Source: Clostridia bacterium (GTDB lineage Bacteria > Bacillota > Clostridia > Christensenellales > Aristaeellaceae). From it: a stretch of 64,000 nucleotides of DNA. The notes below the pieces were generated by a model. The model searched no databases. It saw only the letters and a list, made by a program, of their open reading frames with translations, and was not told the origin of the DNA. A program made the position numbers and the translations under genes. Positions 40,948 through 44,729 of this stretch are shown here, in pieces. Position 1 is the stretch's first letter. Every line of letters starts with the position of its first letter. The stretch lies in the NCBI GenBank assembly GCA_017524615.1, contig JAFXVJ010000013.1, forward strand, positions 49,489 through 113,488, in the 5' to 3' direction.

Positions 40948-41961
40948 ATGCGCGTATTACTGACCGGCGGCGCCGGATACATTGGCTCCCATACGGCGCT
41001 CTGCCTGCTGCAAGCAGGATATGATGTCGTGGTGCTGGACAATTTGAGCAATGCCAGCCCGGAAGCCCTGCGCAGGGTGGAGGAACTGACGGGCAGGCAA
41101 GCGCCGCTGGTGGTTGGCGACTGCACGGATGAAGCGGCGGTCACCGCCGTGTTTGAGCAGTATCCCATTGACGCCGTGATCCATTTCGCCGGGCTCAAGG
41201 CCGTGGGCGAATCGGTGGAAAAGCCCTTGGATTACTATCAGAATAACCTGGACGCCACCATGACCCTGTGCCGGGTGATGCCCAGGTATCATTGCCCGGT
41301 GCTGGTTTTCTCTTCTTCCGCCACGGTGTACGGCACCACCCAGGAAATGCCCCTGCGGGAGGATTTCCCCACGGGCTGCACCAATCCCTACGGCTGGACC
41401 AAATGGATCAGCGAACGGATTCTGACCGACGTGGCCAACGCCGATCCCACCCGCTCCTTCGTGCTGCTGCGCTATTTCAACCCCATTGGCGCGCACGAAA
41501 GCGGCCGCATCGGTGAGGATCCCACCGGGATTCCCAACAACCTCATGCCCTATATCTGCCAGGTGGCATCCGGCAAGCTGGATCACCTGCGCGTATTCGG
41601 CGACGATTATCCCACCCGGGACGGCACCGGCGAGCGAGATTACATCCATGTGATGGACCTGGCGGAGGGCCATTTGAAGGCGCTGGAGTACGCCGTGGAG
41701 CATCGGGGCGTGGAAATCTTCAACCTGGGCACCGGCACCCCCTACAGCGTGCTGGATATCGTGCGAACCTTTGAAAAGGCCAATGACCTCACCATCCCCT
41801 TCGAGATCACCCCTCGCCGTCCCGGCGACATCGCCGTTTGCTACGCCGACGCCACCCGTGCCCGCGACATCCTGCACTGGCAGGCCCATCGGGACCTGAC
41901 CGCCATGTGCCGCGACGCCTGGAACTGGCAAAAGAACAATCCCAAAGGATACGGCGCCTGA
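40948..41961 (+). CDS. galE: UDP-glucose 4-epimerase
   Basis: Interconverts UDP-glucose and UDP-galactose, using bound NAD. The start MRVLLTGG at 40948 is seven bases after CGGAGGG; two codons upstream is another ATG with poor spacing. The 337 residues have the Rossmann motif GGAGYIGSH, FSSSATVYG with the catalytic Ser, Tyr148-x3-Lys152 in NPYGWTK, and RYFNPIGAHESG, which is specific for GalE. It supplies UDP-galactose for surface glycans, matching the nearby sugar nucleotidyltransferase. Confidence 0.96.
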   Translation: MRVLLTGGAGYIGSHTALCLLQAGYDVVVLDNLSNASPEALRRVEELTGRQAPLVVGDCTDEAAVTAVFEQYPIDAVIHFAGLKAVGESVEKPLDYYQNNLDATMTLCRVMPRYHCPVLVFSSSATVYGTTQEMPLREDFPTGCTNPYGWTKWISERILTDVANADPTRSFVLLRYFNPIGAHESGRIGEDPTGIPNNLMPYICQVASGKLDHLRVFGDDYPTRDGTGERDYIHVMDLAEGHLKALEYAVEHRGVEIFNLGTGTPYSVLDIVRTFEKANDLTIPFEITPRRPGDIAVCYADATRARDILHWQAHRDLTAMCRDAWNWQKNNPKGYGA

Positions 41962-42016
41962 CCGTCCGATGCGGCAGATGGCCGCATCAGCGCTTTCACG
42001 GATACATCGGATCATC

Positions 42017-42054
42017 ACGGCCCGCCGGAGCATCCCTGTTCCCGGGCCGTTTTT
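42017..42054 (+). terminator. Terminator of galE
   Basis: ACGGCCCG (42017-42024) pairs with CGGGCCGT (42043-42050), followed by TTTTT. Confidence 0.8.
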
Positions 42055-42061
42055 CTTTACA

Positions 42062-42088
42062 CAAAAACAGCGGGCTGTTGGCCCGCTG
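42062..42088 (-). terminator. Terminator of the 6S-like RNA
   Basis: CAGCGGGC and GCCCGCTG (42068-42075 and 42081-42088) pair around TGTTG, and the minus strand continues with TTTTT. Confidence 0.88.
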
Positions 42089-42299
42089 CTTTCACGAAAA
42101 CGAATGTCCCAAAGTGCCGCTGTCCTCTATTTTTTCACCCGCTATGTTAAGCAGGCCGGTGCCCAGCGGCGGTTTCTGCCGTCCCCTGGCATGCCCGGAG
42201 GCACGGGGGCATGACATCCGTCCGCCTGTCCCAGGTTCCGTTTAATGAAATGTGGGTAAAAACAGAAAACTGGCGCACACCCCAGGATCATTCTTTCCG
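42062..42299 (-). ncRNA. Structured non-coding RNA, candidate 6S RNA
   Basis: A minus-strand unit with its own promoter (42306-42334), no open frame with a ribosome site, and a strong terminator (42062-42088). The body of about 205 bases folds as one long hairpin. The ends pair (42284-42299 with 42094-42110). An outer bubble has a long unpaired 5' side (about 42236-42272) and a 3' side carrying a small 6-bp hairpin (42138-42155, CCTGCT/AGCGGG). A distal stem (42218-42228 with 42163-42172) is capped by a TGCC-TCCG-GGCA loop. Closing stem, large central bubble with a 3'-side hairpin, and length match 6S RNA, which traps sigma-A RNA polymerase by mimicking an open promoter. That a small RNA is made here is likely; the 6S identity is inference. 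Confidence 0.65.
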
Positions 42300-42305
42300 A
42301 AAAGT

Positions 42306-42334
42306 ATTATATGCGATTCTCTTACGCTTGTCAA
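42306..42334 (-). promoter_or_regulatory. Consensus promoter of the 6S-like RNA
   Basis: Minus strand TTGACA (42329-42334), 17-base spacer, TATAAT (42306-42311): a full match to the housekeeping consensus. The -35 overlaps the stop codon of the upstream nucleotidyltransferase gene, and no gene lies downstream on this strand before a terminator. Confidence 0.9.
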
Positions 42335-44616
42335 GGCAAAGTTGCGTGTTCTTTCTGCTCCCGGGTGATCTTTTTGATTTCATCGGTATAGAAGTCGCAC
42401 AGCTCCCGGGCAAATTCCGCGTTGGCTGCCTCACCCGTCACCCGTACCACATTCCTATACCCGTCAGGCACGATGGTGGCGTATCCCTTTTCATGCCGCA
42501 CGCGCATGCCTTCCCCCAGGGTGTGGGGCAAGGTTGTCCGGTCGCACAGGGCGTGTAGGATGCGGCCTTTTTCCTGCGTGCGGCAAGCCACGTCCATGGT
42601 CAGGACATGGGTTTCCGGCAGCTTTTCCAGCCAAGTGCGCAGCGGCCCCTGGCGCAGAGCGTCGCATATTGCCACAAGAGCCGCCAGGCCGTCGCTCAGC
42701 AGCGTCCGCTGGAACAGACATGCATCGCTTTCATCCTGTGGCAGCAGCGGGGCCAATTGTCCCGCCAACCGGGGAACATCCGGAAGATCATAAAGCTTCC
42801 CTGTTTTCTGATGGCAGAGGTATAGCAACAGCATGTTTTTTTGCTCAGCCGGTAAGGCCTGATCCCTGAGGAAAATCGCCGCCGCATCTCCCGCTTCCGA
42901 TAGCAGGAATCCCGTTTCATCCCCCTGCAGCTCCGTATGCGCCAATCCGTCAAACCTGGCGGAGCGCACATCCATCCGTTCCAAGGCACGTTTGGCCAGA
43001 TCAAGGATATACGGGGAATCGCAGAATACAGCCATCGGCGACCAGAGCGGGCGCGTGCTGGCCGCGGGCAGGATGTTTGCCATGTAGATATCCTCCGCGC
43101 CTGCCAGACGGATCACTGTCCCCGAATGCGCAAAAGCGGGAGGCCCGTCCTTTCGCAGCATGGCTGCATCCATGGCCGTGATCTGAGAGGCCGTAAGGAA
43201 CGCGCCTGTCCGATCCATGAACCGCAGGCTCTGTCCTTCGGCGTACACCCCGCCATCCGTTTTCAGGGCCCGCACCAGGACCGACAGCATGGGCGCTGTC
43301 ATTTCCCCGGCGGTCAGCACCCGGCATCCCGACGCCGCCAAAGCGCCGGAAGCGAGGGACAGCATGGCCGCGCTGCCGCTTCCAGCGGTCAGGATCTGGC
43401 GTGCCTTGGTCTGCTGCACATAGGCGGCGCACAGCGCGCAGGCGTTTTCCGGGGTGTCGCAATCTGCGCCGCGGGCCGTCCATTGGGCGTTGCCGCCCGT
43501 ACCGGACACGATCCCGGCGGATACCACCGCCCCGGGGGCTGCCTTCGCGTGGGGACAAATCCGCACCCCAGGCTTGAGCAGGCAATAGGGCCCTGCCACT
43601 GCGCCTTTTCCCAGCGCGCAGCCTTCCCCGATGTCCGCCCCCTGGCGCACCACCGCTCCTTCGCAGATCACGCTGCCGATGACCCGCGACTTGTCCTGCA
43701 CGGCGGAACCCGTCCACAGGCAGGCGTTTTCCACCACCGCGCCGGCGCCAATGACGCAGTGAGCGCCGATCACGGCGTCCCTGAGCAGCGTCCCCGGGCC
43801 TACCGCGGTGCCCGGCCCGACCATGCAGTGGCCTTCGATGCGCGCTTTGGGATCAATCAGTGCTGTTTCGTGAACCCCTTCCCCGTGGGGCAGATCCACT
43901 TCTCCCCGAAGCAGCGCCAGCTGCGCCGAGAGATACGCGTTCATATCCCCCACGTCGCACCAGTATCCGTCCATTTCAAACCCGAACACCGGCAGCCCAT
44001 TCCCCACCATGGACGGAAAAATATCCTTGCCGAAATCCGGCATGCCTTCATCGGGGATATAGCGGAATATATCAGGCTCCAGGATATATATTCCCGTATT
44101 CACCAGGTCGCTGAACACCCGGCTCCAGGAAGGCTTTTCAATAAACCGGGTGATCCTCCCTTCTTTGTCCGTCATGACCACGCCATAAGGCAGGGGCACG
44201 TTCACCCGCTTGAGCACCAGGGTGGCTATCGCGCCCTTTTCCCGGTGAAATGCCAGGGCCCGGGTGAGATCGCAATCCGTCAGGCCATCGCCGGACAGCA
44301 CAAAAAACGTATCCTTCAGGTGCGGCAGGGCCAGTTTGACGCTGCCCGCCGTGCCCAAGGGCGCCGTTTCCTCAAAGTAGCGCATCTGCACCCCGTACTT
44401 TTCTCCGCGCCCAAAGGCATCCCTTATTTTGCGGGGCAGATACCACAGCGTGGCGCCGATCCGGGTCACGCCGTGGCGCTTGAGCAGATCCACCGCGTAT
44501 CCCATCACCGGCTTGTCCAGCAGCGGGACCAGCGGCTTGGGCGTGCTGAGGGTCAGCGGACGCAGCCGAACCCCTTCCCCGCCGGCCATGATGATTGCCT
44601 GCAACGCCAAGTTCAT
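42331..44616 (-). CDS. Sugar-1-phosphate nucleotidyltransferase fused to a degenerate phosphomannomutase domain
   Basis: About 761 residues. The N-terminal 235 residues are a nucleotidyltransferase (AIIMAGGEGVRLRPLT, PKPLVPLLDKP, LSGDGLTDCDL) of the mannose-1-phosphate guanylyltransferase or glucose-1-phosphate type. Left-handed beta-helix hexapeptide repeats occupy about 250-370, then a region laid out like phosphomannomutase/phosphoglucomutase. That last part lacks the phosphoserine loop TASHNP: the equivalent stretch near 453-467 reads GGVYAEGQSLRFMD, so it is probably not a mutase. The start is uncertain: ATG 44616 sits only two bases from AAAGGAG, TTG 44610 is better spaced, and ATG 44637 has a weak site. 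Likely supplies a nucleotide sugar for surface glycans. Confidence 0.82.
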   Translation of the reverse strand: MNLALQAIIMAGGEGVRLRPLTLSTPKPLVPLLDKPVMGYAVDLLKRHGVTRIGATLWYLPRKIRDAFGRGEKYGVQMRYFEETAPLGTAGSVKLALPHLKDTFFVLSGDGLTDCDLTRALAFHREKGAIATLVLKRVNVPLPYGVVMTDKEGRITRFIEKPSWSRVFSDLVNTGIYILEPDIFRYIPDEGMPDFGKDIFPSMVGNGLPVFGFEMDGYWCDVGDMNAYLSAQLALLRGEVDLPHGEGVHETALIDPKARIEGHCMVGPGTAVGPGTLLRDAVIGAHCVIGAGAVVENACLWTGSAVQDKSRVIGSVICEGAVVRQGADIGEGCALGKGAVAGPYCLLKPGVRICPHAKAAPGAVVSAGIVSGTGGNAQWTARGADCDTPENACALCAAYVQQTKARQILTAGSGSAAMLSLASGALAASGCRVLTAGEMTAPMLSVLVRALKTDGGVYAEGQSLRFMDRTGAFLTASQITAMDAAMLRKDGPPAFAHSGTVIRLAGAEDIYMANILPAASTRPLWSPMAVFCDSPYILDLAKRALERMDVRSARFDGLAHTELQGDETGFLLSEAGDAAAIFLRDQALPAEQKNMLLLYLCHQKTGKLYDLPDVPRLAGQLAPLLPQDESDACLFQRTLLSDGLAALVAICDALRQGPLRTWLEKLPETHVLTMDVACRTQEKGRILHALCDRTTLPHTLGEGMRVRHEKGYATIVPDGYRNVVRVTGEAANAEFARELCDFYTDEIKKITREQKEHATLP

Positions 44617-44729
44617 CGCTCCTTTACGGTTCATCATTCTTTATTTCTATTATGTGCTGCGCACTGCCCGGCTATGCTTTTCTCCCGGCTTCCCGTTATA
44701 ACAAGATTGTAAACTGTGGAAATTGGCTC

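Follow-up and report, generated by a model that had tools for sequence, protein, structure and literature searches.

A 6S RNA gene predicted in a clostridium of the Aristaeellaceae, and its occurrence across the family

We analyzed a 64,000-nucleotide stretch of DNA (the window) and propose that positions 42334-42062 of its minus strand almost certainly constitute the 6S RNA gene (ssrS/bsrA type) of the source clostridium, judging from sequence comparison. 6S RNA is a well-known regulatory RNA of bacteria, with RNA polymerase as its binding partner. An earlier note on this DNA had proposed a search with the Rfam 6S covariance model (RF00013). The whole model (positions 1-187 of 187) aligned to 42102-42291 on the minus strand and scored 53.2 bits, where the gathering score is 46.4 (window E-value 9.1e-08); no other match in the window, of any Rfam family, reached its gathering score. 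This full-length match, together with the covariation found in relatives, supports the 6S identity that the note had put forward. The Rfam matches ncr1175 and SNORA57 were weak, far under their gathering scores, and were read as chance. Overall, the locus is an ordinary member of the known 6S family; the one unexpected result is how large a gap in annotation the standard model leaves in Aristaeellaceae.

Transcription unit and copy number

The features of the locus, with the evidence on which each rests, are as follows.

42329..42334, minus strand: -35 hexamer TTGACA (promoter match), holding the TGA stop (42333-42331) of the upstream nucleotidyltransferase gene
42306..42311, minus strand: -10 hexamer TATAAT (promoter match)
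42298, minus strand: probable transcription start, at the G located 8 nt beyond the -10 box (from the sequence)
42102..42291, minus strand: 6S RNA body (RF00013 53.2 bits, full length; R1 206.8 bits)
42241..42257, minus strand: 5' strand of the central bubble, ACCCACAUUUCAUUAAA (consensus structures)
42252..42265, plus strand: predicted product RNA (pRNA), 5'-GUGGGUAAAAACAG, templated from the C at 42252 (start projected from published 6S RNAs)
42137..42156, minus strand: 7-pair hairpin in the 3' bubble strand, GCCUGCUUAACAUAGCGGGU (consensus structures)
42062..42093, minus strand: intrinsic terminator hairpin and T run (folding)
42017..42050, plus strand: converging hairpin with T tail, probable galE terminator (folding)

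R1 is a covariance model built from 23 6S copies of the same genus, and its score of 206.8 bits for the window copy is that of a sequence which is itself among the 23. Both RF00013 and R1 located one 6S copy in the source draft genome (2,551,266 bases). A second 6S gene was considered and rejected, as RF00013 gave one match and R1 one match even at E <= 10, although a second copy may still exist because the assembly is 81.6% complete.

The promoter on the minus strand, TTGACA (42334-42329), a spacer of 17 nt and TATAAT (42311-42306), equals the sigma-70 consensus at 12 of 12 positions, has no second perfect match in the window and was found in none of 100 shuffles, so the full-consensus promoter described in the note is borne out. 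Genome-wide, 66 perfect sites were found versus 0 for a control with the reversed pattern, which places the 6S promoter beyond chance, yet makes it not unusual for the source genome, which thus makes regular use of such promoters. The predicted strong terminator was likewise recovered as a hairpin at 42093-42063 with 13 pairs (-21.8 kcal/mol, z -4.7), whose 3' arm continues into the T run; an automatic terminator scan of 41000-43500 listed 0 sites, probably missing this hairpin because the stem absorbs the T run. Promoter and terminator are thus both present in the sequence, with about 237 nt between them. A mechanical list of open reading frames contains plus-strand frames that overlap the 6S region (e.g., 41838-42245 and 42211-42558). 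Based on this arrangement, we propose that the full-consensus housekeeping promoter would drive an RNA of about 237 nt, ending at the intrinsic terminator, which would probably be trimmed to about 190-200 nt.

The transcription signals are also found in the family. All copies but L041 (137 of 138) carry a promoter with 10 to 12 of 12 matching positions in the upstream 90 nt, and 98 of these promoters match at 12 of 12; when the upstream reach is set at 60 nt, 121 of 138 copies have at least 10 of 12, and with shuffled upstream sequence 3 of 138 reach 10-11 of 12. These counts are based on 138 rows, from which three copies cut at the 5' end (L213, L200, L201) were left out and in which L202 was kept. 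A run of five T within about 90 nt downstream was observed in 106 of 136 copies and was lacking in 30, two further copies being too short. The near-perfect promoter is kept in the family although the gene upstream is not the same in all genera, nor throughout the genus. 6S repression is generally considered to act on promoters with weaker core elements, and a near-perfect promoter could therefore render the 6S gene immune to its own product, so that 6S RNA would accumulate while other sigma-A promoters are shut; we regard this as rather unlikely, and it is countered by the 66 perfect promoters of the source genome, which show that such perfection is not peculiar to 6S.

Fold, covariation and the predicted pRNA template

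For the 238-nt region 42299-42062 the predicted folding energy is -113.1 kcal/mol, while 200 shuffled sequences had a mean of -82.5 kcal/mol and none was as low (z -6.0); the 198-nt body alone gave a folding z of -4.65. The consensus structures contain a closing stem, a central bubble, a hairpin on the 3' side and a distal stem, in agreement with the architecture outlined in the earlier note, except that the 3'-side hairpin has 7 pairs there and not the 6 described. The single-sequence fold lacks a clean open bubble and has part of the 5' bubble strand engaged in a local helix. The 3' bubble hairpin (helix 9) is present in the single fold as well, and 96.4% of its cells are paired over 99 distinct family sequences.

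Compensatory changes in relatives, which had been suggested as a check on the assignment, were frequent. An alignment of 100 family 6S loci to R1 (A2; 99 distinct sequences, with a separate set of 36 loci kept outside it) had 93.1% of cells paired, two-sided changes in 36 of 59 pairs and a covariation score of 0.357 versus 0.169 +/- 0.004 when shuffled, with 0 of 500 shuffles reaching the observed value on any of five measures; these numbers are inflated and the shuffle significance is overstated, because A2 was fitted to the R1 structure and the copies are related. When the partners were slid by 1 to 3 columns, pairing fell to 40-51% and the covariation score to 0.060-0.090, a control that answers the bias from structure fitting and kinship only in part. 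Within the genus alone (23 copies), covariation was modest, at 10 of 59 pairs with a mean column identity of 80%. Besides, the motif CCCACA, counted anywhere within the match, was found in 122 of 138 copies.

Projection of known start sites places the pRNA start at window position 42252, a C that is base 40 of the match. In the model-fitted alignment A2, all 100 copies have C at pRNA +1 and A next to it; GG is kept at pRNA positions 4/5 (in 100 and 97 copies) and AA at positions 9/10 (in 94 and 93 copies). PMC8414754 names three hallmarks of LAB and reference pRNAs: an adenine adjacent to the start, GG at positions 4/5 or 5/6, and AA at 9/10. The predicted pRNA, GUGGGUAAAAACAG, displays them as a sequence motif.

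The conservation of the predicted pRNA start points to templating by the holoenzyme, and it bears on whether the locus could be a 6S-like RNA of the Ms1 type, which binds core polymerase instead of sigma-A holoenzyme. Ms1 is said to be related structurally to 6S RNA in PMC9130861, but the same paper reports Ms1 from Actinobacteria, the window RNA scores above gathering with RF00013 and the predicted pRNA start is kept in 100 of 100 aligned copies. Based on these observations, and with the comparison to Ms1 consisting here of the Rfam scan, we consider an Ms1-type RNA extremely improbable and retain the 6S RNA assignment.

The 6S RNA of the window resembles the RF00013 family as a rod of about 190 nt with a central bubble whose 5' strand holds the pRNA template, whereas it differs in scoring only 6.8 bits above the gathering score. 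It has its overall architecture in common with E. coli 6S (ssrS), and its pRNA site stands at a position that we take to align with the E. coli pRNA site. According to PMC8876501, the pRNA of B. subtilis 6S-1 RNA (bsrA) also starts at C40, as inferred for the window match, and the free form of 6S-1 has a small hairpin on the 3' bubble side, as predicted here for the free window RNA. In contrast, the E. coli hairpin, extended to 9 bp, arises only once pRNA synthesis opens the next helix (PMC8876501), while the 7-pair hairpin of the window is predicted in the free RNA. The predicted 3' bubble hairpin thus resembles that of Bacillus 6S-1 more closely than the extended E. coli hairpin. The source genome, with one 6S copy found, also differs from B. 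subtilis, for which PMC8414754 gives two, 6S-1 and 6S-2.

By analogy with the 6S family, we propose a cycle of polymerase trapping and release. The RNA would form a rod in which the central bubble mimics an open promoter, and this bubble would hold sigma-A RNA polymerase once growth stops. On regrowth, the polymerase would start at the C at 42252 and yield a short pRNA beginning GUGGGUAAAA, and its synthesis would unwind the adjacent U-rich/A-rich helix, freeing the polymerase. Folds of this single 6S sequence with the pRNA site masked (9, 12 or 14 nt) did not form the central bubble collapse helix of B. subtilis, and the 3' hairpin stayed, which makes the release step less certain.

Genomic neighbourhood

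The product of the gene upstream of the 6S RNA (window 42331-44637) is 768 aa long and matches sugar-1-phosphate nucleotidylyltransferases (PF00483) in its N-terminal part; among the NCBIfam matches listed for this protein, none reaches its cut-off. The protein looks fusion-like, combining the N-terminal nucleotidylyltransferase with hexapeptide repeats and a sub-cut-off match to phosphoglucosamine mutase at residues 645-751. The converging gene downstream is GalE (TIGR01179, 442.8 bits versus a cut-off of 262.3).

Since the -35 box overlaps the end of the nucleotidyltransferase gene, the locus might be read as a structured 3' untranslated region or attenuator of that gene and not as an independent 6S gene. 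The stop codon lies within the -35 hexamer in the window and in 7 of the 16 other same-genus loci having the gene (leaving out L070, a broken match), the gene is directly upstream of 6S in 17 of 23 same-genus loci, and a 28%-identity homologue of the C-terminal part of the protein takes this place in two of the 43 other-genus loci (L009, L017). However, no nucleotidyltransferase was found directly upstream at E <= 1e-8 in 6 of 23 same-genus and 41 of 43 other-genus loci (flanks mostly at least 1.5 kb), a different protein frame stands upstream in three of the six same-genus loci (those inspected), and the RNA matches RF00013 and has its own strong promoter in 137 of 138 copies. We therefore consider the untranslated-region reading very improbable and keep to an independent 6S RNA gene. 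Considering the 17 of 23 genus loci, the homologues in L009 and L017 and the otherwise differing neighbours, the sequences hint that the association of nucleotidyltransferase and 6S may be older than the genus, with a location that is not fixed. A search of named genomes with the nucleotidyltransferase protein found no relative.

In four loci of other genera (L042, L043, L044, L046), 6S is located about 70 to 260 nt from a ylqF/rbgA match, with no nucleotidyltransferase match between them; in the window, the nucleotidyltransferase gene stands between 6S and ylqF/rbgA.

The context between galE-like and nucleotidyltransferase genes that the note had expected in homologues was recovered on the upstream side in the genus, as given above, but GalE was found downstream in just 4 of 23 same-genus loci, some of whose flanks are only about 0.14 kb. 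A search with GalE returned at least 80 loci, and R1, applied to 49 of them, gave one match, L078, in which 6S adjoins galE (isolate RGIG4437, roe deer omasum). Eleven loci among the matches listed (L072-L082), all within the 49, have GalE of at least 85% identity, and in 10 of the 11 the flank that was retrieved holds no 6S, so the pairing of 6S and galE is not general. These 11 relatives (85-89% identity, among the matches listed) are labelled Clostridia, Clostridiales or Christensenellaceae, and the sites named for them are the reticulum, rumen, omasum or colon of ruminants, or red deer. We infer that the source organism is probably an uncultured relative of ruminant-associated clostridia carrying a similar GalE.

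Distribution in the family and the annotation gap

In the genus, RF00013 found 6S in 23 of 29 genomes, 22 of them above the cut-off (own genome included), and R1 in 24 of 29, counting a partial match at a contig end in G170. The five genus genomes lacking an R1 match are of different kinds. 6S is in fact present in G159, truncated by the contig end, and in G151 the nucleotidyltransferase match extends into the contig end. In G168 (81% complete), the nucleotidyltransferase gene lies mid-contig (L251 3640-4200) with other sequence after it, and R1 found no 6S there or elsewhere; G156 and G171 had no R1 match and weak nucleotidyltransferase matches only.

Two genomes had more than one R1 match. 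One 6S copy of G166 (L071, 1501-1702) carries a 14-nt tandem duplication inside the 3' bubble hairpin and the other (L202, 251-476) has lost its 3' part, replaced by other sequence; both were read as likely assembly faults and not as a genuine second gene. In G135, the second match lies where a contig ends and shares 99.4% identity with the first across 172 nt, and was unconvincing as a second copy.

R1 does not reach the whole order: across 61 genomes it matched 26, comprising all 4 genomes from its own family and 22 of the 57 from other families. In one collection of papers, a search combining '6S RNA' with 'christensenella' gave no result. In the family, R1 matched 138 of 150 genomes, whereas RF00013 at E <= 0.001 matched 95 of the same 150, own genome included, 77 above the cut-off and 18 below. 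With only 77 of these genomes clearing the cut-off of the standard 6S model, 6S is easily missed in this lineage, which fits the earlier remark that clostridial 6S RNAs often go unnoticed. The locus adds a probable global transcription regulator to the annotation of gut and rumen clostridia from a lineage that metagenome assemblies, for the most part, have made known.
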